Source of the DNA: Desmodus rotundus
Lineage: Eukaryota; Chordata; Mammalia; Chiroptera; Phyllostomidae
Length of the DNA: 64,000 nucleotides
Reading direction: 5' to 3'
Assembly (NCBI RefSeq): GCF_022682495.2
Contig: NC_071389.1
Coordinates: 175,212,056-175,276,055 of the forward strand
Part shown: in pieces, positions 1,692 to 52,690 of the stretch
Numbering within the stretch: position 1 is the first letter of the stretch
How the letters are laid out: each line of letters opens with the position of its first letter
Translations under genes and position numbers: made by a program
The notes under the pieces: generated by a model
Told to the model about the DNA's origin: nothing
What the model saw: only the letters and a program-made list of their open reading frames with translations
Databases searched by the model: none

Positions 1692-1732
1692 CTGTTCCTA
1701 GCCCTTCCATGCCTCAAATGTCATCTCCAAAC
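1692..1732 (-). pseudogene. PDE6H: PDE6H coding exon 3 with in-frame TGA
   Basis: The acceptor AG lies at 1734-1733 (minus strand) and the donor GT at 1691-1690. The frame is fixed by the split glycine codon shared with exon 2 (GG at 2739-2738 plus G at 1732). Codons read F G D D I stop G M E G L G T. The stop is 1716-1714. The residues after the stop match the human protein exactly, which rules out a frameshift or wrong exon boundary. Exon length is the 41 nt expected from the human protein. Confidence 0.93.
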
Positions 1733-2737: not shown

Positions 2738-2871
2738 CCTTTCACACCTTCTGCAGGAGGCTTGCTCTTGAATTGGCGAGTCTGCCTCTGCTTGAACTTG
2801 GGGGGCCCTTTGCGTGGAGTGGTGGGACCCTGGTTTGAAGCTGGGGGAACCAAAGTAGTATTGTCACTCAT
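2738..2871 (-). CDS. PDE6H: PDE6H coding exon 2 (start codon exon)
   Basis: The ATG is at 2871-2869. The exon encodes residues 1-44 and the first two bases of codon 45, then a GTAAGA donor at 2737. The proline-rich N terminus and the basic region that contacts the PDE6 catalytic subunits are recognisable. The likely acceptor of the exon is near 2900 (GGACAG before CCATCAG on the minus strand), giving about 28 nt of 5' untranslated sequence. Differences from human are Val-Pro for Pro-Ala at 8-9 and Ala-Glu for Lys-Lys at 40-41. The non-coding first exon and promoter, which should lie at higher coordinates, were not located. Confidence 0.95.
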
Positions 2872-8099: not shown

Positions 8100-8226
8100 C
8101 AGGGTGGGACAAAAGTAGGTTTGCAGTTGTTTGTATGGAAAATGATATAATAATTAATAAATAAGAATATAAGAATAAACTGTGTTTCACATACTCACAA
8201 CTGTAAATCTACTTTTGCCCACCCTG
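8100..8226. mobile_element. Mariner-type miniature inverted-repeat element
   Basis: A 127-bp element has terminal inverted repeats of about 30 bp: CAGGGTGGGACAAAAGTAGG... on the left, and its reverse complement with one indel and two mismatches on the right (TTTTGCCCACCCTG at 8213-8226). The AT-rich interior has no coding capacity. The right side is followed by TATA, compatible with a TA target site, while the left flank reads TT. The GGGTGGG(C)AAAAGTAGGTTTACAG terminus is a family I know from mammalian, including bat, genomes. It must have been mobilised by a transposase encoded elsewhere. Confidence 0.8.
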
Positions 8227-10143: not shown

Positions 10144-10319
10144 CAACCAGCGAATAGGGTCACATTGCTGTAAACCAGGTGAGGAATCAGCAAGGAATTT
10201 CTCTGGTAAAACTTTGGGTGTGCTGGGCACTAAGATTTCGCAGACCCAAAGTTTTACCAGAGAAATTCCTTGCTGATTCCTCACCTGGTTTACAGCAATG
10301 TGACCCTATTCGCTGGTTG
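10144..10319. repeat. Perfect 76-bp inverted repeat (long hairpin)
   Basis: The left arm 10144-10219 and the right arm 10244-10319 are exact reverse complements over all 76 bases, with a 24-base spacer at 10220-10243. The arms start with CAACCAGCGAATAGGG and end toward the spacer with AAACTTTGGGT. Pairing stops abruptly at both ends. The arms are not a repeat family I recognise and are not A/T simple sequence. A 13-base poly(A) and a GAAA-rich tract follow at about 10338. Perfect identity implies a recent event, such as a template switch or fold-back duplication, or an assembly artefact. Confidence 0.97.
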
Positions 10320-27517: not shown

Positions 27518-35375
<7,858 letters not shown>

Positions 35376-36374: not shown

Positions 36375-36465
36375 ATGGAAGCCACACCGCCCAGATGCCT
36401 GTTTCTATTATGTCTTTTCATGTCCAAGCTGTCCCCAGATGGTGCAGAAAGTCAAGAATCCTCAG
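36375..36465 (+). CDS. ERP27: ERP27 exon 1: signal peptide
   Basis: Residues 1-30 and the first base of codon 31. The donor is GTAAAAC at 36466. The 5' untranslated part probably begins between about 36200 and 36350, just after the L2 fragment. No TATA box is obvious. Confidence 0.92.
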
Positions 36466-39400
36466 GTAAAACAAGCAAACAAACTTGGGTGACTATAGGG
36501 TGAGAGTGTTGTTAAGAGAAGGGAAGGGCACAAGGTAGCACTCCGAATACTTTTCCTCCAGACCTAGATAATTTTCTGGGACATGCTGGATAAGCACCTG
36601 CGTTGCCTAGTGGAGAAGAGGGAAGTCCGGCATTATCCCTCTGACAGCAGCCATACGGTGGGATCACCTTCCGTATGTTGGCAAAACAAATAAATAAATA
36701 AAGCCTTGGAATAATAATAATTGCACCCCTAGAGCTCCTTGGCCTTCGAGTGAAGAGAAACAGGATGGAGCTGCGTCCTCCCTACTCAGTACCCTAATAC
36801 CTTCTGCTTTCCTCTCACTGTCTCTCTCTGTGTAGATGGTTCCCATGCTCTCCAGGAACCTGTGTGGCTCACAGATGTCCCAGAGGCCATGGAATTCATT
36901 GCTGCTGCTGAGGTGGCTCTCATAGGCTTCTTCCAGGTTTGTCCACATGCCCTGCTCTCATTATTCTCCCAAAGAACCAGAGCTTGGCCTCAAAGGAGCC
37001 GTGACAGTCTCCGTCTAGCCAGATGACACCACATTAGAAGCCAAGGGGCTCAGAGTTTGCTTTCAGCTTTTTCTGAAAACTCTCAGTTGTTTAGGCATTT
37101 CCTATCTCTCAATTATGTCTTTTTCAAAGGTTCTGAGGCCCCTGGATGGGCCTCCTCATCTACGGTTGCTTTGAAACTTAAGCCAGTATCCCATTGCTGG
37201 GTCAGTGGCCAGAGTAAGCCCAACGTCTGTCATCCAGGCGATGCATTACCAGACAGGTAGCCCTTTGTTCTTCTGTCTCTTGGTTCTGAAATGTTGAAAA
37301 ACAATGATGTTTCATATATGGAAGGTGTTAGCCTCCACCTTCCAGGGTGACTGTCTGGCTAATGAAAGCAGCCATAAATGAGCGAGCATCATTCTAGCAT
37401 CTTTATCTTTCTCTGGAGGTAACAGCTGGTGATTTCTCTCTCATTGCAGACCTTCTTGTCAGTTTCCATTCATTAATTCCAACTCATCATCACCCTGCCA
37501 TTCTGTGTACGCAGCTGGAAATAGCTGTGATGAGGTGTAAGTGGGGGAGGAAGAGAAGAGAGCACATTTTTCAGTGATGAGAGATCTGAGCTGTAGACAA
37601 AAACAGGCACCCTCAGAACGTCAGGGAAGGGCAAGAAGGTGGAAATGGAACAGTGTGCAATAACTTAAAACAGCCACCAGATGCCGTCATTTGATCTGTG
37701 AGCAATTCCATTTTAAGGAGCAGAATAAAAAAGGGGAAGCCTAGATTAACAATTAGCCTCCGGTGAACTCCATGCATATTTTCAGATGAGCAAGGTGCCA
37801 GGCCCCTCTGCTTGAGCCCGGATGCAAGGCTAGCCTTCTTCCTTTCTATTTGCACAGCCCCTTCAACCTGGAGAGGTGTCAGAGCAGAGTATGTTCACTC
37901 CTGATAATTACCTGGAGCTGCCGTGGGCAATGGTCCTACAACACCAGGGAAAATTATGTCAGCTTGCGATATAATAAAGACTCATCACTCAAAAGTGGCT
38001 TCCCTGCCCCCTGCCCCTCCAGAGTTGGGGCAAGTCATAAACGGTATCTTTCATGGGCAATGCCTCTGGCTTACACGCAGTAGAAGGAGGACTACTCTTT
38101 CCACATCCTCACGAACTGTTGTTAAAAAAACTAGTAAGTTTCCATTTTAATTTCTTTTTTTTTTTCTTTTGGCCCTTTTGATAACACTTTCTTATTTTGG
38201 CATTTCTTTTGCCTCCACAAATTGTTTCTAAAACATTTGCCTTCATGGGTATGTCATTGACCAAAACGCTGACCACTTTTGCAGGCCCTGTGGTTTTGAG
38301 GCCCCTCTCAGCTACTAACAAACTACAAGTTCTACGGTAAGGCCAGAGAGGAGTCCCAGGCTTAGACACAATCCTGTAGTTACCAATTAACCCACTCTGC
38401 CTGGAAATTACTTCACTGGACACTGAATCAAGTCTCTGATTTCTAGTATGAGTGAGCACATTTCAATTCCCTATCCTGATTCCATGTCCCCTTCAAAATA
38501 ACCTCTGTGGGGTTTTCTTTCCCCTTGTTTTTAGGACTTAGAAATACCAGCAGTGTCTCTATTCCATGATGTGGTGCAAAAATACCCAGGCGTGGCATTT
38601 GGAATCAGCACCGATTCCCAGGTTCTGGCCCACTACAACATCACGGGAAACACCATTTCCCTCTTTCGTCTGGTAAGTCGGGTGGGCAGCTCGAGCCTTC
38701 TCCTAGTTTTTATTTACTTTATGTTGTGAACTCATAAACTTGTGAGACTAGAAAAGGTCTATGTCTTTACCACTAACGATGATGCCAGAGTTAGGGACCA
38801 TGATAGTGAGCGTGATGGCTCAACTCAGGCTTCCCAAACAGATGCTGTCGTGAAATGGAGGGCAGTCTGGACTGAGAGTCGGGCAAGAGATTTGTTGCTG
38901 ACCAGTCATGTGACTTAGGCAGGTCACTTAACACTTCTTAGCTCCGATTTTTTCATCTATAAATAAAACAGTTTGACCATGGCATCTCTAAGATCCTTTT
39001 GAACTCTAAAGTGCATATTTTCATATCTTTGGGAGTTCACTTCCATTTAAACATATATTAAACAACTGCTACATGTCATATGCCAAATATTAATATTAAA
39101 ATGTGTTAAGCATATTCTCTTCTCTCATAGACCTTAAAGTATAGTAGAGATCATAAACATGATATACAAGTCTCTATAATACAAAGACATCACAATGGAT
39201 AAAGTGTTGTATGGGTTCAAAGGGTAAAAGCAGTGTACGTATTCTGACAAAAAAATTTACTTTAAAAAAGGCAACTGAACTTGGATTTAAAGGATAGATA
39301 AAATTTGGACAGGGTGGCAGAGAATTTTTGGCCAAGGTAGCAAAAAAATGTAACTTAGGAAACAGTGATCGGGACCAATTGACTGGATCTCATGGTACGG

Positions 39401-42400
39401 GTTTTGGGGAAATGAATGTAAGACAAAGAGCTTGACTGGAACCACACTGTGGAGAAACTTGAATTGCAGCTTAATAGGTTTTCACTTCATTTAGTTGGCA
39501 TATGAAAGGTCCTAAATCCTTTAGATCAGGGGAGTGAGGCAAACAGAAATGTGTTATTGCAACACTATTTTGGCAGATGGGTGAGATGGATAGCCAAGCA
39601 AAAGGACAAGAGTGGAGAGAATTTTTGTCAGGCTGGCAAAACAGATCATGTGCTAAGGGTTACAGTAGAGAGGTTACAAGAGAAAGTGAAGAAAAGGCAG
39701 CTCTTGCAAAGATTAGATATCAAAATGATGGAAAGGAGGCAAAGCTTAAAGTTAGGGTGTCTAGGACTGGGAGGAGCACATACAGAAACAGGGATGCTGT
39801 GGTGAGGACTTAAGTCTGTATTATTGGCGGAGAACCCGGGTAAAGATAGCCAGAGTCCACTGCAAATGAGAAACTGAGCCAAAGACAAAGTTTCAAGATT
39901 TCTGGTTTGAATGTCCTTCCCCTTCTAGCCTTCATCCTATCGCTCTGTTTCACCTGCTATCCAAACCTCTCCAACACGTATTTCGTACTCATATCTCCAA
40001 TTTTCTTTAAGCTCTAAGTACACTGCTACCTAGTTTGTACCCTGCACTCCATTAAAACTGCCTTCATCCATGTCGGCACGTTTCTGTATTTCCAAATCCA
40101 ACGGACACTCTTTAGGTCTCATTGCACTGACCATCTCTGCCATGTTTGACAGGTTGGCCACTTCTTTCCTCTTCAGTCTCTCCTTCCTTGACTTCTAGGA
40201 GCCTGCTTCTCCTGGTCCTCCTCTCTTTTCTTAGTCCCCTTGAGACTGTCTTTTCCTCCATCTGCTCGACCGCCTGACCCAATGCTCTTCCCATGTAGGT
40301 TATAGACTCCAGGCCCCGTGAAGGCAGAGGCTGTCTTGTTCACTACTTCAATCAGTGTCTGAAAACGTGCCTGCGATGTATCAGGTGCTCATTAAATGTT
40401 TAATTAATTAACTAACTAACTAATGAGTGAATGTGTGATCCTCAGGTAATATAATTCTATCTCCTGTTTGACTATTAAGTGTTTGCTGAGGATGTGGAAT
40501 GTTTTCCCTCTAGCCTGGACCTCTACCGTAATTCAAATGCTCGCTTGCTGGGCGAATACCCTCATAAGCACTGCGGTCTTAACATGTTCAAATCTGAGTT
40601 TACCATCAGCACCTGCTCAACCATGTTTTTCCCTCTAAAATGCTTTCTTATTGAATGGCCATGTTCCTCCAATCTCTAATTTTTTCTAATTGAACCTCCT
40701 ATCTTCCTGAACCTCTATTCTTTTTCCCTCTTTCCATTTCCTTCTTCTATTAGACTCTTAGCAGCACTGGCATCGACGACGATTCCATAGCTTCTTAGTT
40801 GGGCTCCCTGTATGACTTCACATGTAATTTTTAGATTACATGACGATGAATTTAGATTGGAACTTTGACGATGGCACTCCGTTCTTAAAACTTTTTAATG
40901 TTTCCCATTTCTTGTAAGATCGAAATAGGGATGTTTAAACATATAACCTCTTGTGGCCTGACCACTACCTGCTTCTCTATTCCCATTTTTGGCACATTCC
41001 CACCCTGAGACCTCCCCTGTCCATACCCAGGTACACGCAGCATGATGACTCCGTTCCACAGTCCCACACGGGCCGGTCCTCTGCCTAGAATACCACCGTC
41101 CTCAGGTTCCCCTTTCTCTCAGCGTCCCTGGGTCAGTCCTCCTCGCACTGCAGTGAGTCAGGTGGGCTCTTACCCTTCACAAAGTCTCCCTGGAATCTCC
41201 AAGTTGGCCTCATTATTCCTCCAGATCTGCACATCTTTCTCTTCATTTACCACTTCATAGTGCAGACCATGTACTTCTGTGTTGGTCCCACCTTATTCTG
41301 CACTATTCAGGGGCAGAATCCGTGACAGCCGTTTGTTGTACTCTAAAGGTCTATAATATGTCTCTAGTAGCCAGAAGACACTCAGAAAGTGTTTGAGAAA
41401 CTAACTCACCTCCAAAGGCAAGTCTGCGGGTGCACAAGTACCTTCAGCAGCCCTTTCCCCACCTGGACAGCAGTTGTAGGTTTGGCTTTCACTATGGTGA
41501 AAAGGGATGAAATCGAGCTCCTCTGGGAAGAGCTTTGGTAAGAAAGATATGGAAGGTCAGGTTAATGCCTTCCATATTACAGTTGAACCATTGGTAGCAA
41601 CACTTCAACACAAAATTTCTAATCAGCTACAGCTCCACAGGTACTTCCTTCCCGGTTTGTTGTCTATAGATCTTATGAAGGCCTGATTGTAAAGTTAGTG
41701 CTACTCAAGACTTTCCCGGGGAAGAAAAACAAGTGCTGTTGTTTCCAACCTCTCTACAGAGTTCTCAACCTCTAATGGGTGCATTAACTTGACTTACAAT
41801 TTATTATTTATAAAGTCCTGGTGGTGACTTCCCAGAGCTGTTCGCTCTTCTTTCACATCTGGTTTTTGTTTACCACTGGTGACAGACCTGCTCTTAATGA
41901 ACTCCTGGGACCTCTGTGGGCAGGATTATTTTGTGCCATACCCAAAACAAACACACTGGTTCTTGCCCTACTCCATTAGCTGGTCTGGGAGAGATTCGAC
42001 TTATGCCATGCCCGCTTTTAGATAAACATTTTTTTTCTCAGTTTACACTGTCAAAGTTGAATCCGTATTTTAGCAGAGTTGTTATTTCGGAGTTTGGGAT
42101 ACCTCTTTTTTTAAAGGTAGTATCAACTAAAACTATTCTTTACATTGGGAAACTTGAACTTGTTGCAATTTTCTGGTACTTACCTTCCTCTTAGATTTGG
42201 TTTGTTGTTTGTTTGTTTGTTTCATGCCTAATTTATAATAGGCACTACACTAGGTGTGTTCATTGTTCTACCATTTAATTCTCACAAGAATTTGATGAAA
42301 TAATTATTGTTAGCCCTGCCTTATCAATAAGAAAACTAAAGTTCCATGTGGTTGGTTCCATTGTCCAAAATCTCACAACTGTGACCTACCGACATCTGAC

Positions 42401-45400
42401 TCTTACCCTGTGTTGCTGACTCCACAGCGTACCTTTTCTGTGACCCTATAGTGACTTTCCAAAGCACTTATTCCTGAAGAAAACCTTTGTTTTTACTCCT
42501 AGATTCCATCTACTCTCATGCCCCTCATTCTAAAGCCACCTTTTTTAAACTACTTTCTCCTAAACCATTTCCCTCTCCCACTGTCTCTATTTATCCAATC
42601 ATAGGGTTACTTCTCAAGATTTAATCTAGACATTACATATTTTGTCAATAAAATTGCAGAATTTAAACAGGTAGAACTTTCACCTTTAAGGACATATCTA
42701 GAGATAAAGTAAAATAATGACACATGAGAACATAATAAGACTATAAGGGTTAACATGACTAGATGCTTGAAATACTGCAGCATAAATATAAGAGACCAGC
42801 AAAAGCTGTATCCGTGGAACGCATCGCTTTACAGAAATGATGCAAGCGGGTTACATAGACATCATCAGGAAGAATGTTTGGAAAATGGAGCAATAGTAAA
42901 GTAGTGTGTGACTGCCTGTCTGGTTTGCACGGCAGTTTGTCTCTCTGTGTGTGACCTCAGGGAGACCCTCCACACCCACCAGCGGATCTCTTACTGTCGC
43001 CCCAACAGAGACATGGACCTGGGTTGAATAAGCATGAGCCTGTCCTAAATGGAATTTCAGACATTACTTGAACATTTACCCTGCTTCGGTTTCCTCAATC
43101 ACGTCTATTTTAAGAAACATATTAGCCTAACTTTGATCCATTGGGATAATAATGGAAATAGAGTAGAGGCAGTCTGTTATTCCCTTTACAGGTATTTGCT
43201 GGGTACTTATTTTAAGAAATGCACCTTGCCAAATAATCAGAAGAGACTAGTACATAAAAATAAAGTGATAATTAATGCAAGAATAAGATATGTCAAATTA
43301 TTAAATATTTTTCTAAAGTATATATTTACCCAATGGAATGTAAGCTAAGCAGCTTATTAAAAAATTTTTAAAAAGCCAGCAACAGGAGGACATTTGCTTA
43401 ACAAATGGCTTCTCAGTGCTATGCAAGTATTTAACACTATAACTGTGGTGTGAACTAGGATGACTTCAACACCTTTTATGAAAAGCTGGGTTAACTAAAA
43501 GAAATACATAGGAATTGAAAAAAATGTTGCTAAAATACTAATTAACAGAAGAAGAATGATTAAATCTGTTGGTATAATATAAGTAGTGTCTAAAACATAA
43601 AATAATTCATTTCAGACACTCTCAGGAACCTCAAAGTTATACTTTAAAGTGGAATTCCTCTGGTTTACCCTTTCTGTTTTCCATCTGACCCCTTTTTACT
43701 TGGAGAGAACAATAATATGCTATCTCCAGTAAAATTCTTTCCAAAAACTCGAAAAATACATAAAATTTTTCCCTCAAATCTTAGTTCTAGGGTCGTATTT
43801 TCTTTCCCTTGCATTATGCAAATAATTTCCATTACAGAACAGAGATTTCCCATTCCAATGCTGTTTACAGAAATGCTCCACGTGAATACTCCGAAGTGTG
43901 TTCGTTTAAGAAATAATGAAATAATCAGGCACGCTTCATTCAGTGAAGCATACATGCTAGATGGACTTCAGGAGGGTGCTTTTTAACAAAGCTCTTTGCT
44001 TCCTAGAGAATGTTATCACGGGACATCTTCACCTCCAGTGTACTGCATTCCTTAGGTCCAGAAACACCTACAGTAACTGGCGTTTCCTGTTTTCCCTGTT
44101 CTGGGAAAAGTGAGGGACTGCCTGGAAAATAGAGCTGGAGGGCTGGGCTCCTGCCCAGAGCACAGCTGTGTCAGCTGAGGTGCAGGCACCAGGCCTGCGA
44201 GTTTCTAGAAAAATAATCAGGAAGTGTTCAGACATACTAAGTATTAAAAAGGCCCTAATTGTGATTATAATAATAATGGTTTTGATGGTGGAAATTAGCG
44301 AACACGTAAGTATGAAAGACACATGCCAGCTGGCAATCTGAGCCTTATGCAGCAAAGATCTACGTGCTCATTTTGCTCCTCTCCCCACTCTTACCGACTT
44401 GGGGTGGGGAACTGTAGAGGGGTGGGCAAGGACTCCACCTCGGAAGGCCTTTTCTCTTGCATTTATATTTCTACATCAAGCTTTCTATTCAGAGCTTTTG
44501 GAATTTTAAAACAACTAAATGTACAAAGGGAGTTCACAGTTTAAATATCCTATGGTTTTGATGAATTTTTTCACAATTCCTTTTTGAAATACACACACTT
44601 TCTGTACGTCAGTACTTATTTGATAAATTTGAGTTGTGAAAACAGTTGTAAAATAAAGTGATAAAATTTTTATTTGAGTGAATGTCAGCATGTCTGACCC
44701 TCACATATAGAGAACACTCAACAAATCATTCACAAACCAATGAATGGATTATAAAAGAATGACTAGATATAGCAAGAATTAATAAAACTAACCACAAAGA
44801 GTCCACTGAGCTCCTTGGAGGTCCACATTGCTTCTCAATGTGGAACCCAGTGGAAGCCCACCCTGAACACATTAAACAATGGAGTCGGCGTAGTGGTGAC
44901 AATGAAGAACAATCTTGGACTAGATTCCTACTGACTTTTAGTGACTTTAAGTTACCTTTGCCTGAATTCCCTCATTCATAGACTAAAATGATACTTACCT
45001 TTGACTTTGCTGGGTAGACTGGAAGAAGGTTTCTTGGGGTAAAGGATAGTTCTGATCCATGGCAAGATCTGACTGGGTAGAACTGATATGAGATAATAGA
45101 TGTAAGGGAAAGAGGTTAAAGAGATGTAAAGGGTCGGTGGCCCAAGAATCTCAAAAGTGATCCAAGTGATAATAATGACATTTTAGGAAACAGACTTGTT
45201 CAGGGCTAGCCCTGATCATTTTTATTTGTAGACATGGTTGTTATGGGTAATGGAAGAATTACCTTGTGTCTTCATGGGCACAGGTGGACTGGGGAAGATG
45301 AATGAGAAAATCTGGGAACAATGGCCATATGAAAACCCATCTTTTAATATATCTGAGTATGGTGGAAAGGTAGTTCTAAAATATAATTCTTGGATAATAA

Positions 45401-48400
45401 ACCAGTTAACTAGACAATCCCTTCCACCAATAGCAAATTTTTTAAAAAGCTGGGCCAAAAATGAGGGCTTTAAAGAATTATCAAGGAGAGGAAATGGCTA
45501 GACTAAGATCTAGAAGATGGAAGAAACTCAAAAGATAAACTTTGTATGTATTAGAAGTGCTTTTCATCTGAGAGGCTTTTGTGAGTTCTAGCAGAAGCAG
45601 CCAAAAAGCTAAGAGTTTTATTAACATTTTCTAATAAATTAACATTTGTTAGAAAATGTTAATAAAGAGCCAGAGAAGTAAATGTTGAAGTCCAGAGCCC
45701 AGAAGAGGAAGTAGGAGGTAAATCTAGCAAAATACCTTTTGCACCACTTAAGACCCTAAAGAAAAATACCCTCAAAATAAGGATAAACCAAGGGCTGCAG
45801 CACAGACCTAAATCATCTCAATTCCTGAAATTTGATTAGGATTATCATATATGAATATAAAAATATATACACACGTACACTTGTAGACATATATAATTAA
45901 TTATATATATAACCATATATATAATCTACTCTTAGCCATATCACATCATACATAATAGCTGACCCTTCAAAGAAAAAAAATTTTGAATCAGAAAAAAGAA
46001 ATTACCCTCAAAAAGGTAATTTCTCAAAGAGGTAATATTACGTTTCACAGATGACTTTTCAATAGAAAAAGTGGAATGCAGAATTTAAAGAATCATATCT
46101 TGCAAAACTAAGAGATAATAACTGTCAACTTAGAATTCTACCCCAAACAAAAATAACCTTCAAAAGTAAAGGTGAAACAAAGATATCTGAAACAACCAAA
46201 CTGAGAGAATGTCACCCAGCACAACTAATTCATGCTAAAGGAAATACCAAAGGTTGTTCTGGGCAGACGGGAAAAATTCCAGATAGAAGGTCAAAAATAC
46301 AGAAAGAAATGAAAGCAAACAAAAATGTAAATATGGGCATAAACGTAAATCGTATGTTGACTCTATAACAAAGATAATAATCTCTTGTGAGATTTAGAAT
46401 TAAAACACACAACAGTAACCACCTGTACATCTTAAGTGTGAGCCAGGGAATGGACGTGAGAGGAGGTAAACTGTATTAGAATGTTCTAATGTCTACATTG
46501 CCCGGGAAGAAGTTAAAGTTACAATTCGTGTTAGATTCTGGTAGTAAAGAATGCATGTTGTATAATCCTTAAGAAAATAATTAAAACCTCTGCAACTTCT
46601 AAGTCCATAAAGGGAAAGAACAAATAATACAAAGTATTCAATCAATTCAAAATAGACTAGAAAAAACAATTTTTTAAAGGACTTTGGACCAGGCAGAGCC
46701 AATGGAAAATGCATATTTAATTAAATATTACTAAGTACATTACAAAAATACCAGATTAAAAAACAGATTACCAGACTGGATTTAAAAATATAACAATGCG
46801 CTTTTCCTAAGGGACACATTATTTTAAAACATAACAACACAGAGGTACAAGTAAAATACGAAGATAGGAGGACAGAGACAGACCATGCAGACACTTCCAA
46901 AAGAAAGCGGGCGTAAGTGCAATAACATTAGACAACGCAGTCTTGGAGGCAACAAGCGTCCTTAGAGATAGAGAATGACACTTCCTAATGATAAACTTCC
47001 AATTCGTCCAGAAGATTTAAGAATTCTAAATTTGCATTTATCTAATATATCACCTGAGATTATAGAGCCAGAACAATTGACAGAACTATAAGAAAAATGG
47101 TTGAATCTACAATCATCCTGGAATATTTTAACATTCCTCTCTTCATAGAATCAGCTGGTTTTAAAAGTCAGTAAGAATACAATAAAATTAACCATGTGAC
47201 CACAGGTGCACATCCAGAATACTTCATTCAAAAACTGTAAACTAGTTTTAAGGACACAAATAACATACATAGAAGTTGACAAAAGATATAAAATGTAAAA
47301 ATTAAGCTAGAAATTAATAACAAGAAAAGTTTAGAGAAGAGATAAGAACAGAAATTTAAAACACTTTGAACTGAATGATGAGGTAATCTACACATAAAAT
47401 TTATGGATGCGTTTTTAGCCTTCTAAGAGAGACGCCACTTTCTGAAAGCATTTCTGCTCTTCCTTAGATAACATTTGGGCCTGTGATGACACGTGCCACA
47501 TTCTGTCTGTTCAGTCAGGGTCATGTCTGTTCACTTCTCTGGGTCCCACAGGACAGTGTGTTCTTCAAGGGCAGGGACCATTTCCTATTTACCTTTCTGT
47601 GTTTGGAGTTCTAGTCGGTGCCTGACACATGGTAGATAGTTCAGAAACATTTCCCAATGAGCGAATAAAGACAGAACAGTGACAATTTCATTATTTTTAT
47701 GTTACTCAGGTGGATAACGAACAACTGGATTTACAGAGTGAAGCCATGGAAAACATTGATGCCAACAAATTAAGCCGTTTCATTGAGATCAACAGTCTCC
47801 ACTTGGTGACAGAGTACAATCCTGTGGTAAACAATAGCCCCTGCCTCCAGCCCCTAAAGTCCCCAGTCAGGGAGGATACTTGTCTTCAGAGCAGAGATCT
47901 TCTCCCCCAGGAGCTCTGATCCTTCAACCAATAATAAGAGCATCTGCAGTTGACTGAACACCTTAGTTGTTTACCTTGTCATCCTTGCTGCAACCTTTAA
48001 GGTTGATCGACTTGTCCCTATTCAAGAAAGAAACAGAATCAGAAAAGTTAAATGACCTATCACATGACTAATAAGAAAGAGCCATAATGCAACGTTAAGG
48101 GGACTGATTTGAAGACTCCTGAGTTTTGCTGCCTGACAGTGATCCAGGAGGACAGCCCCGATCCAAACCACGCTTCTCAAACAACAGTGCAATTGAGGCT
48201 GAAGGCCCGTTGTTTCCCTAAAGCGCCAGGAACCAATACTTTTTAAAAATGCAGTAAACTACATCAATAGACAAAAAAATTAAAAAAAAAAAGCCTATTG
48301 ATCACACACTTGGATGTCGCAGTTATGTAAAATTCCTATGAAAAATTTTAGGCACTTTTTCTCAGTGCCTCACAACTAACAATTCTAGGTCTGGCTCCAC

Positions 48401-51400
48401 CTGCACACACCTAGACCCTCCAGGTGAGTCAACTTTCTTTCCAGGTTTGTCTTCTTTTAGTGTTGCCTGCTGTATGCAGCCTGGGTAAGGCGTTGGTCTA
48501 CTTGCCCTGATGATCTTCTGGCCTTCTGACACTCCACAGCTTACAGAATTACCTTAGAGCCCACCTTTTATTTTTCCTGACAGAGGTCCCAGAGTGACGG
48601 GGTACTAATTTCTAGTGATCTACATCAGCTCAGAGTTGCTGTGCGTTCTCTAATAACAGTATTTTACTTACATGCATGTCATGATTTTGAGAAATGACAA
48701 CTCCCTTTCCTACCATGTTCTCATTGAACGCTTACATTGATTTTTTTGAGGTAGAAGTGAGGAAATTATTATGACCATTTTATGGAGAACATTCAAGATC
48801 CAGCTGACTTATTCAAGATCACACAGTTCATAGAAAAGGCGTAATCAAAGGCAGAAAATCTAACTAATCATGCATTAGTTCACATTGTCTGTTTCCACTT
48901 GACAGGACAGGAAATGGGAGTGCGGAAAAGCAAAGTAATTTCCTCAGAGCCAGATGACTGGGGATTTGAGCTGCAGAGATGGCGCTCTGCACTTGTCCTT
49001 CTTTTTTTCATGACTGGTCTGTCTGGCTGAATCCTGTGGTTTTCCCATTGCCCTACCAGCCTTCAATAGAAAACACCCCTTTTCCTGTTGACTAAATTCC
49101 TGTCCACCTCTCACACCATGTTTGTCTCCGTGGAGTGGTGACTCCATTTCCACTTTTGCCAAGATTTCAAACACATGCATCCTGGGGGTATTGGCAAAAA
49201 TCATTGAAGAGGCATTTTTTTTCTCCTAGACCATCGCCATTTTCATCATCGTGTCTATCGGGCATCCAGGAGTGCACGTGGAACCATAAAGACTGATTTT
49301 ATGGTCCTTGGGTTTATGGTCTCGGGGCCCTGGAATTTGTAGCCTAAGGCAGGGGCCAGAACTGGCCTGAGTTCTTATGCCTGGTCCATCCCTATTTTAG
49401 AGAACAATGACATTTTTTAAAAGTTTTATGTTAGTAGTGAAGGTAAATTACCTCAAAAAGAATTAAATGAGAATTTCTTTAGAGAAGCAAGTTCAACTTT
49501 TATTGTGACTTCATTTCCCCAAAGTAATACTTTTCCCATTCAGATACCTGCCCACACTAAAGAGCTATTTCTCAGATGCTCCAGCGACAGAGGTTTGCAC
49601 CAGTAGCAACTGGGCAGAAGCTCACAGGCGTGTATCGGCCTGCTGAGCACTTGTAATGCACGCACTCAAACCTTGGCTTCAAGGCAAAGAATCAGGCTGT
49701 GTCTATTAGGATTAAACTAACCATTTCTGATATGTCTAATCCCTTCTGTTAAAACAATGGTAACTTTTAATTTCTTAACTTTGGCTTCTTGACTCTTCTG
49801 AAGAATTATCCTCATGTCTACTTTAGGAGAGTAGATGCATGCTTTAAATTCAAGCAGAATCTAATCAAACAAGAGACAGTTATTTAACATCCAGCATTCT
49901 GAATTTAAAATCTAAGAACTAGTTTTAAACTATTGGGAGAAATCTGGGGAAAAGAACCCAGTGGGTCCCCTTGCCTACATGTTGGCCGAGAGAGCTAGAG
50001 AGTCTCCACAGAGCAATGTACACATCTCCATATGTGTACTGCATCAGATGGAGAGTACTTTGAAGGTGACCGAAGTTTAAACATGTAAGAATAAATACAC
50101 AATTTTTTATAAATCAATTCCAGATTTTTTGGGCCCCCCTTGTATTTGTTGTCTATTGATACATAATAGATTATCCCCAAATTTAGCAGCTTAAAACAGT
50201 AAAAATTGATTACACGCAGTTTCTGTGGATCAACAATTTGGGAGTGGCTAGGCTAGGTGCTTCTGACCTTGGCCTCTTGTGAGGTTACAGTCATTGGTCA
50301 GGGAGGAAATGTCATCTGCAGGTGTGACTGGGGCTGGAGAATCTGCTTCCAGGATGGCTCAATCACATGACTGGCCAAGTCAGTGCTGGCTGTTAATAGG
50401 AGGCCTTAGTCCTTTGCCATGTGCATCTTTCCAACATTGGGACTACCTTTCCCTGGAGTGAGTGACGTAAAAGAGAGCAAGGCAGAAACCACCATGTCTT
50501 TTATGACTGCGCCTTGGAAGTCACACTCTATCATTTCTGCCACATCTCACTGGTTACTCCTTTCGTCCCTACTCAGTGTGGGGGAAAGAGATCAACACAG
50601 CATGAGAACCGGAGGGTGAGCCTTACTGAAAGGACCTGAGAGGCCGGTTACCACCTGCGTTACTGAGGAACAGTTCTCATTTATGTTGCACTCTGTCTAG
50701 TCACTGGGTTACCACTAATGGGGGTTTTCTCCCTCTCTCTTTCACCCTGTTATGATCCATCTCAACTTGCCAGACTGTGATTGGCCTATTCAATAGTAAG
50801 ATTAAGATTCATCTTCTCCTGATGATGAACAAGGCCTCTCCAGAGTATGAAGAAAGCATGCGCAGCTACCAGAAGGCAGCTAAGCTCTTCCGAGGGAAGG
50901 TAAGTCTGGCTTGGGAGACACCCTTTTGAAAACTCAGTACCAGGACAGTAGAAAAAAAAATGGGGCTAAGGGAGTGAGATAGATAAGGAAAACTAATATG
51001 GTTAAGAGATAAAGCAAGAACTGGGACATACTAAATCACATTACTCTGATTTAAAATTAAAGCTATTGTATTTTGTACTATTCAAGGCCTGTATGTGTTG
51101 AGTAGTGCTAGTCGCTTGCTTTTTTCCTACATTGACAGGTGAAGACAAAACAGAGACTCAAAGATACTGAAAATAAAAATTACCTATTTATTACAATGTT
51201 TTTCTTCTTGCCCCAGACTCTTAAAGTTTTAGACCTCAGGGCTTATTTCTCATATCAGACACCTATCAGGTCGCTGGTGCCTAATGAATGTTCAGTACCT
51301 GGTGTCTGATGGCCACTAACTAACTAAATAAATGAACATCCCCTTCCTTGGGTAGCTCCACTGGTACACTGACCAGTAAAACTTCAACAACTTCAAGGTC

Positions 51401-52690
51401 ACTGCATGGAACTAAATCACCTGTTCAATGATAACTACCTGATGATAAAATAAGCTGACTTTCTGGTGGTTGTTTTCATAACACTGTAAGTTGTCAGTGT
51501 TACTGAATGTGGCTAATTCTCTAACCACAACACTACAAGAAGATTTCTACTTCAGGTACAAGGCTTGATTTAACGATATAGGATAGTTAAGATTTGCCCA
51601 GCATTTACTGTATGCCAGAAACTACTAGAAATACTAAATGCATTCTCTCATTTAATCTCACCCAACAAAAGCCCATTCTGCCCATGAGAACACTGAGTCT
51701 CAGAGAGGCTAAGTAATGTGCTCAGAGTCACACAGCTAAATAGCACCAGAAGCAAAATTTAAAATTTATTCTCTGCTTTTAACCATTAGGCCCTACTTAC
51801 TTAATCACTAAAGTTAACCACTAAAGTCTCTTCCAATTCCTTGTTCTTGAAATTAAATCAACCTAATTGAAGGGATAACCTACCTAAGCAATGCAAAGCA
51901 AGCCCAACAGAGATGTAAATTGTGTGGCACAAACCATAAATTCAGTCTGAGGAAACTGCCACAATTACGAGACGTCTCTTTCCCCCTGGGACCTCAGACA
52001 GATCTCTCTTTCAAACTCCTCCAACTGCAGGTTCTTTTCATTCTGGTGGACAGTGGTATAAAAGGAAATGGGAAGGTAATATCATTTTTCAAACTAAAGA
52101 CGTCTGAACTGCCCGCTCTGGCGATTTACCGGACTCTCGATGAGGAGTGGGATACACTGCCCAAAGCAGAAGTTTCATTGGAGCTTGTGCAAAACTTTTG
52201 TGACGGATTCCTAAAAGGGAAGTGGCCGGTAAGTACGAGACTGCAGGGAAGGCAAGTGGAGTTCTCTTCCTCTCTATGTCCCTGTTATTTCCTTTTGAAT
52301 AAAAATTATTTGGCTCCCCTGGATTTTATTAAGAGCAAAGGTATATGAGAACATGGTAGACAGAGCCTGGATGCTTGTTAAGATATAGTCATCGGAATAG
52401 AACTACAAAAGCATTTTTGAAAAGGTCTTGTTTATTCGAAGGAGCTGAATTTTGGAGTTCACCATACTGAGTACAGTATCCATGGGAAACAAATCACATT
52501 CCATAGAAAGAGTTCATGAGATAAAAATTGCAGGTAGATTTGGAACTTCCAGCGTTAACTAAATACCTCAGTTTTCTAATCTTAGAGCTCAGAAAACAAG
52601 AGTGGACTCCAAATCTAAATTCTATGTCATGATGTTTTTCAGAGAGAAAATGAGGAATCAGAAGAAAAGACTCAAAAGGTGGAACTCTGA
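36375..52690 (+). CDS. ERP27: ERP27, non-catalytic ER disulfide-isomerase-family protein, seven coding exons
   Basis: ERp27 is a lumenal ER chaperone-like protein with two thioredoxin-fold domains (b and b') and no redox motif. It binds unfolded protein and recruits ERp57. Coding exons are 36375-36465, 36836-36936, 38535-38672, 47710-47826, 50774-50899, 52031-52228 and 52643-52690, all GT/AG and in phase. They give 819 nt, or 272 residues plus stop; human has 273. Residues 1-about 23 are a signal peptide (MEATPPRCLFLLCLFMSKLS). The first domain spans about 35-140 (LTDVPEAMEFIAAAEVALIG, then IPAVSLFHDVVQKYPGVAFG) and has a glycosylation sequon at Asn99-Ile-Thr. The second spans about 150-257 (ILVDSGIKGNGKVISFFKLK). 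The mature protein has one cysteine (Cys248), so no CXXC is possible. The C terminus KVEL is the ER-retrieval signal. The ERp57-binding loop reads DEEWD (228-232). The start has a strong context (G at -3, G at +4). The frame is open 45 codons further upstream, but human starts at the chosen ATG. Confidence 0.97.
36836..36936 (+). CDS. ERP27: ERP27 exon 2
   Basis: 101 nt, residues 31-64, DGSHALQEPVWLTDVPEAME and on to IGFFQ. The acceptor is TGTGTAG and the donor GTTTGTC. Confidence 0.94.
38535..38672 (+). CDS. ERP27: ERP27 exon 3
   Basis: 138 nt, residues 65-110, from DLEIPAVSLFHDVVQKYPG to NTISLFRL. The acceptor is TTTTTAG and the donor GTAAGTC. The human protein has Cys in the ISLFR segment where this one has Ser. 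Confidence 0.95.
38867..39020 (+). repeat. MIR-type SINE
   Basis: CAGTCATGTGACTTAGGCAG, GTCACTTAACACTTCTTAGC and TTTTTCATCTATAAATAAAA, then GATCCTTTTGAACTCTAAAG, in MIR/MIR3 order. Confidence 0.65.
39040..39900 (+). repeat. Ancient L2-related repeat, diverged
   Basis: Motifs such as CATAGACCTTAAAGTATAGT, GGCAACTGAACTTGGATTTA, GTTTTCACTTCATTTAGTTG and AGAGTGGAGAGAATTTTTGT recall an old mammalian repeat usually associated with L2. Subfamily undecided. Overlapping open frames here (for example 39551-39805) are incidental. Confidence 0.45.
39910..40410 (+). repeat. L2 LINE 3' end
   Basis: CTCCAGGCCCCGTGAAGGCA, GAGGCTGTCTTGTTCACTAC and GCGATGTATCAGGTGCTCAT then TAAATGTTTAATTAATTAAC match the L2 3' terminal region. 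Confidence 0.7.
40480..41405 (+). repeat. L2 LINE fragment (ORF2 end and 3' region)
   Basis: Diverged L2 order is visible: CATGTTCAAATCTGAGTTTA, TCATAAGCACTG, AGTTGGGCTCCCTGTATGAC, CTTGTGGCCTGACCACTACC, TCTGCCTAGAATACC, then the 3' end AGGGGCAGAATCCGTGACAG and CACTCAGAAAGTGTTTG. Non-coding. Confidence 0.7.
41406..42227 (+). other. ERP27 intron 3, no feature seen
   Basis: Unique-looking intronic sequence with no recognised repeat or exon. The open frame at 41916-42194 shows no family resemblance. Confidence 0.4.
42228..42440 (-). repeat. MIR SINE (antisense)
   Basis: ATAGGCACTACACTAGGTGT, CATTTAATTCTCACAAGAAT, TAAGAAAACTAAAGTTCCAT and AAAATCTCACAACTG follow reversed MIR order. Confidence 0.65.
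42441..45600 (+). other. ERP27 intron 3, mostly unassigned
   Basis: No exon is recognised. A weak MIR-like stretch lies near 44920-45010. Reading frames in 43049-43348 and 43665-43986 occur on both strands and look incidental. Confidence 0.4.
45617..45666. repeat. 18-bp perfect AT-rich inverted repeat
   Basis: Arms TTTATTAACATTTTCTAA (45617-45634) and its exact reverse complement (45649-45666) with a 14-base spacer that itself holds another TTAACATTT. Intronic in ERP27. Confidence 0.92.
46080..46270 (+). repeat. LINE-1/HAL1-type fragment
   Basis: AACTGTCAACTTAGAATTCT, CCTTCAAAAGTAAAGGTGAA, ACCAAACTGAGAGAATGTCA and TAATTCATGCTAAAGGAAAT recall the 3' part of old L1 or HAL1 elements. Degraded. 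Confidence 0.6.
46740..47415 (+). pseudogene. LINE-1 ORF2 endonuclease-region remnant
   Basis: Diverged L1 ORF2 5' sequence: CAAAAGAAAGCGGGCGTAAG, TAGAGATAGAGAATGACACT, TCCTAATGATAAACTTCCAA, TGAATCTACAATCATCCTGG, AACACTTTGAACTGAATGAT and a final ATTTATGGATGCG. Frame is destroyed by stops and indels. Confidence 0.7.
47500..47680 (+). repeat. L2 LINE 3' end beside ERP27 exon 4
   Basis: ACAGTGTGTTCTTCAAGGGC, AGGGACCATTTCCTATTTAC, GTCGGTGCCTGACACATGGT and AGATAGTTCAGAAACATTT match the L2 3' end. It stops only about 30 bp before the exon 4 acceptor. Confidence 0.75.
47710..47826 (+). CDS. ERP27: ERP27 exon 4
   Basis: 117 nt, residues 111-149, from VDNEQLDLQSEAMENIDANK to LVTEYNPV. The acceptor is ACTCAG and the donor GTAAAC. 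It follows a 9-kb intron rich in L2 and L1 remnants. Confidence 0.95.
47940..48085 (-). repeat. MIR-like fragment (antisense)
   Basis: GCTGCAACCTTTAAGGTTGA, GAAACAGAATCAGAAAAGTT and AAATGACCTATCACATGACT follow the reversed MIR core. Confidence 0.55.
48086..50140 (+). other. ERP27 intron 4, mostly unassigned
   Basis: A weak antisense MIR-like stretch lies at 48760-48870 (TTCAAGATCACACAGTTC). No exon or other repeat is recognised. The minus-strand frame at 48944-49204 has no family resemblance. Confidence 0.4.
50141..50640. repeat. Ancient LTR-type repeat (MaLR-like), subfamily undecided
   Basis: TTGTTGTCTATTGATACATA, TTTAGCAGCTTAAAACAGTA, GCAGTTTCTGTGGATCAACA, GACTGGGGCTGGAGAATCTG, TTCCAGGATGGCTCAATCAC and TGTCTTTTATGACTGCGCCT recall a widespread old mammalian repeat I associate with LTR-type families. 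It sits just 130 bp before ERP27 exon 5. Confidence 0.55.
50774..50899 (+). CDS. ERP27: ERP27 exon 5
   Basis: 126 nt, residues 150-191, from TVIGLFNSKIKIHLLLMMNK to KAAKLFRGK. The acceptor is TTGCCAG and the donor GTAAGTC. It starts the second thioredoxin-fold domain. Confidence 0.95.
51590..51800 (-). repeat. MIR SINE (antisense)
   Basis: CAGCATTTACTGTATGCCAG, ATTCTCTCATTTAATCTCAC, CTGAGTCTCAGAGAGGCTAA and GTAATGTGCTCAGAGTCACA, ending in TTTTAACCATTAGGCCCTAC: a clear reversed MIR. Confidence 0.85.
52031..52228 (+). CDS. ERP27: ERP27 exon 6
   Basis: 198 nt, residues 192-257, from VLFILVDSGIKGNGKVISFF through LDEEWDTLPKAEV to NFCDGFLKGKWP. The acceptor is ACTGCAG and the donor GTAAGTA. Confidence 0.95.

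Follow-up and report, generated by a model that had tools for sequence, protein, structure and literature searches.

Very probable pseudogenisation of PDE6H and decay of further cone genes in the common vampire bat

Structure of the PDE6H locus

The window, a stretch of 64,000 nucleotides of the Desmodus rotundus (common vampire bat) genome, carries exons of PDE6H, the cone phosphodiesterase gamma gene, on one strand and the neighbouring genes ARHGDIB and ERP27 on the other. Coordinates are collected in Table 1.

Table 1. Features of the PDE6H locus and its neighbours (window positions unless a contig is named)
Feature	Coordinates	Strand	Remarks
TGA at codon 51 of PDE6H	1714..1716 (read 1716-1714)	minus	in-frame stop
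PDE6H exon 3, 41 nt	1692..1732	minus	canonical splice sites: acceptor ...CCAATAG, donor GTGAGC
PDE6H exon 2, coding part, 134 nt	2738..2871	minus	donor GTAAGA; K40A and K41E relative to human
PDE6H exon 4	C3:175211451-175211375		beyond the window edge, same genome; open up to the normal stop
ARHGDIB	27518..34873	plus	five coding exons, 200-codon open frame; neighbour fixing orthology
ERP27	36375..52690	plus	exons open where matched (tblastn)

On the minus strand exon 3 of PDE6H was translated as F G D D I TGA G M E G L G T, in the reading frame set by exon 2 (2871-2738). The sequence-only reading had placed an in-frame stop at codon 51, and this was confirmed by the canonical splice sites and by the frame that exon 2 imposes. 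When exons 2-4 were joined, stops were found only at codons 51 and 84. The introns of 1005 and 2295 nt have canonical sites. With human PDE6H as the query, tblastn returned matches to exon 2 (E 1e-22) and exon 3 (E 0.002), so these exons are not a chance open reading frame. The human PDE6H and PDE6C reference sequences used throughout were not taken from a database. At most 50 of the 83 residues are translated before the TGA, which lies 22 nt from the last exon junction. Removal of exon 3, as by skipping, leaves exon 4 frameshifted and does not restore the frame. The lesion is known from one Desmodus rotundus assembly, and a single lesion over 83 codons is a low count.

Residue 51 was compared in the 58 proteins, of 102 matches, that carry the motif; 57 have Pro and one has Ser. 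The statement in the sequence-only reading that two base changes separate a CCN codon from TGA is correct, and it holds for any CCN codon.

Inverted repeats were also noted elsewhere in the window. A near-perfect one of 177 bases (10144-10319, halves 92.7% alike) is perhaps a small DNA transposon, and two shorter ones lie at 33506-33566 (82%) and 45617-45666 (88%). The stretch 8101-8225 has inverted ends CAGGGTGGG.CAAAAGTAG..., which we take to resemble those of a mariner-type element. The bat VES SINE, several copies of which are expected in 64 kb of this bat, gave no match at window positions 1-64000 with an approximate consensus.

Orthology and copy number

The order PDE6H-ARHGDIB-ERP27 is presumably the usual mammalian one. 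Intact ARHGDIB and ERP27 alongside identify the PDE6H studied here as the orthologue. ERP27 of the window was compared with the deposited Desmodus rotundus isoform X2; of the 210 8-mers of the deposited protein, 33 were absent from the reading frames of the window, all of them across exon junctions, and within exons the agreement is complete. The next bats among the matches listed for ERP27 were Phyllostomus discolor (83%) and Artibeus jamaicensis (81%); neither Diaemus nor Diphylla was among the matches listed. A megabat source, suggested by the missing SINE match, was rejected on this agreement with Desmodus. A retrocopy was ruled out by the two introns and by synteny with ARHGDIB and ERP27.

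The genome (one genome, 2.12 Gb, 574 contigs) was searched with PF04868. Five matches were obtained: two PDE6H exons, two PDE6G exons and one weak match (31 bits) containing stops. No second intact copy of PDE6H was present among these five, the best candidates being scored. The weak PDE6-gamma-like match (C4:75506451-75506639) has 5 TGA codons and ~35% identity to human PDE6H, and is perhaps an old copy or a chance resemblance.

Decay in the remainder of PDE6H

Relative to the human protein, PDE6H of Desmodus carries P8V, A9P, K40A, K41E, P51*, I63M, E67K, E73A and I83T. In PDE6G of this genome, F10I and A17T are the sole differences from human. In the core from residue 19 onwards, 7/65 positions of PDE6H are changed relative to human (stop counted) as against 0/65 in PDE6G (Fisher p 0.013), and by this comparison constraint on the remaining PDE6H is relaxed. 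The N-terminal half is nearly unchanged up to residue 39. In the basic region at residues 40-41, KK is found in 83 of 101 relatives and the Desmodus state, AE, in none.

Exon 4, past the left edge of the window, had been named as a place to inspect. It is open, yet it holds four replacements at conserved sites. In the relatives with a recognisable tail (68 of 102 proteins, the other 34 being dropped), E73 is present in 68/68, E67 in 67/68, I83 in 64/68 and I63 in 58/68, and the Desmodus letters at residues 63, 67, 73 and 83 occur in 0/68. When all 102 proteins, fragments and isoforms included, were aligned more loosely, K67 was seen once, A73 twice and T83 once. The replacements in exons 2 and 4, together with the other broken cone genes described below, bear out the earlier proposal that the protein is cut short at 50 residues, has probably lost its function and has been under relaxed constraint.

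PDE6H of Pteronotus (mustached bat) is of full length. Its exon 2 departs from that of most relatives at several otherwise conserved positions (PHKGPPKVK, KRQAPTKS), as if constraint were relaxed in this bat as well.

Broken cone genes

PDE6C (C4:27408370-27448010, minus strand) is disrupted by seven nonsense codons and by three or more frameshifts. The nonsense codons lie at about W145, Y233, C524, Y613, Q685, Q757 and Y819, numbered on the human protein and counted by hand from alignments. Frameshifts affect exon 1 and two or more of the other exons. Exon 1 of PDE6C also includes a long stretch of C, which is possibly an assembly artefact and was left out of the lesion count. The density of nonsense codons does not differ between PDE6H and PDE6C (p 0.52), one stop in 83 codons being a weak basis for the comparison. 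The two losses may be of similar age.

OPN1SW (C6:75077154-75080254, minus strand) is frameshifted once in exon 1 and more than once in exon 4. Loss of OPN1SW in Desmodus has been published, with four deletions and five premature stops given in an excerpt of PMC6085362, and an excerpt of PMC6333445 likewise describes its loss in vampire bats.

CNGB3 (C8:65333923-65389819, minus strand) was recovered as fragments only. Two of the three pieces read open; the third contains two frameshifts and one stop, of which the second frameshift and the stop fall in a poorly conserved part. CNGB3 residues 1-502 had no match among those listed for this interval.

Cone and rod genes open as far as read

Six exons of OPN1LW read open and have canonical splice sites. 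CNGA3 was read over ~603 codons without a stop, its last exon being 90% identical to human, and a further small exon is likewise open; its first 32 residues went unmatched. Stops seen in two small exons of CNGA3 fall outside the coding part. Every exon of GNAT2 that was read is open (~312 codons and a short exon 2), and part of one exon is N. A pseudogene call for GNAT2 was dropped, as the apparent stops sit in introns once the exons are read. PDE6A and PDE6B gave mostly open matches at the level of the match listing.

Nonsense codons number 0 in about 1269 codons of OPN1LW, CNGA3 and GNAT2, a count made before two further small open exons were added, and 7 in 857 codons of PDE6C (Fisher p 0.0017). 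Given the PDE6C density, zero stops in 1269 codons would have a chance of 3e-5, rising to 0.015 when the lower 95% bound of the density is used. For the single genes it is 0.055 (OPN1LW), 0.077 (GNAT2) and 0.007 (CNGA3), so that only CNGA3 is convincing when taken singly. These probabilities presuppose that time and mutability were equal, and the function kept could be other than vision.

Interpretation

In all probability the Desmodus PDE6H gene is a unitary pseudogene. The gene lies at the orthologous place, its introns are kept, it is inactivated by the TGA at codon 51, and no intact copy is found among the genome matches. What PDE6H has lost is its C-terminal part, which in PDE6 gamma closes the catalytic pocket and makes contact with transducin alpha. 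Judged from the sequence, the 50-residue cone gamma subunit is probably without function. Under the 50-nt rule a message whose stop lies near the last junction escapes nonsense-mediated decay. With the stop 22 nt before that junction the PDE6H transcript would probably escape, and would then yield a short, useless peptide of 50 residues.

An error of sequencing or assembly, with an ordinary codon 51 in the animal, is barely credible. A single assembly stands behind the call, but two substitutions would have to be wrong at once, other conserved sites have been replaced in exons 2 and 4, and three more cone genes of this genome (PDE6C, OPN1SW and CNGB3) are broken. We give only slightly more weight, and still very little, to a PDE6H that continues to work, either in shortened form as a gamma subunit of 50 residues or because the TGA is read through. 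The persistence of the message that the position of the stop may allow, and the near identity up to residue 39, would suit a short subunit. However, such a subunit would bear AE at residues 40-41, where no relative has it, a tail restored by read-through would be drifted, its terminal Ile included, and PDE6C, the cone catalytic partner, is dead.

The cone cascade of Desmodus rotundus is partly dismantled, and the loss of PDE6H is not isolated. Cone phototransduction as a whole is not lost at the level of its genes: OPN1SW, CNGB3 and both cone effector subunits are broken, yet OPN1LW (L-opsin), GNAT2 (cone G protein) and CNGA3 (a cone channel subunit) are intact over the parts read. PDE6C, OPN1SW and CNGB3 are broken too, and PDE6H probably decayed because cone phototransduction was largely given up. 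Two reasons had been offered in the sequence-only reading for why the loss is tolerated. Of these, reduced cone vision is the better fit. A takeover by PDE6G is possible, but as the sole reason it is too narrow and leaves the death of PDE6C unexplained, because this catalytic partner is itself a pseudogene though PDE6G is intact.

Two overall readings of the kept genes remain: cones may be silent, with the intact genes serving elsewhere, or L-cones may persist on rod PDE6. In the latter, OPN1LW, GNAT2 and CNGA3 would be kept under selection and would signal via rod PDE6A/PDE6B and PDE6G, or the L-opsin would have a non-visual role. We regard this as unlikely, if far less so than either an error or a working PDE6H. 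It is favoured by the intact PDE6G and by the absence of nonsense codons from the three kept genes at a length at which PDE6C has accumulated several. Against it stand the broken CNGB3, the other roles for which CNGA3 and GNAT2 may be kept, and the prediction, reportedly made by Blumer et al. 2022, of a complete lack of cone-based vision. An excerpt of PMC6333445 describes OPN1LW protein in each of the 56 bat species sampled, one of them Desmodus; cells with L-opsin therefore exist, which adds to the case for hybrid L-cones. The kept OPN1LW, GNAT2 and CNGA3 mean either that cones signal by rod parts or that these genes have other duties.

Comparison with known systems

The searched literature, a limited collection, yielded no paper on PDE6H together with the vampire bat, and no vampire bat paper was among the matches listed for the contrast with intact OPN1LW, CNGA3 and GNAT2. 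Blumer et al. 2022 (Science Advances eabm6494) reportedly described that Desmodus rotundus has lost both PDE6H and PDE6C, and the PDE6H loss would then be already published. The species and, by that account, the gene pair are the same as here. Beside the loss of PDE6H and PDE6C, the present analysis sets the intact OPN1LW, CNGA3 and GNAT2. A nonsense mutation of PDE6H is said by Kohl et al. 2012 to occur in human incomplete achromatopsia. The nonsense codon is thus a rare disease allele in human, whereas in Desmodus it is the reference state.

The OPN1SW loss of vampire bats, in the excerpts of PMC6085362 and PMC6333445, is likewise loss of a cone gene in Desmodus, and the gene is seen in broken form here too. 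OPN1SW is an opsin, whereas PDE6H is an effector. In blind moles, one species column of a table in an excerpt of PMC10671557 lists PDE6H as inactivated, and PDE6C and further cone genes with it. The lesions given there are of other kinds (splice site, deletion), and the animals are subterranean with degenerate eyes.
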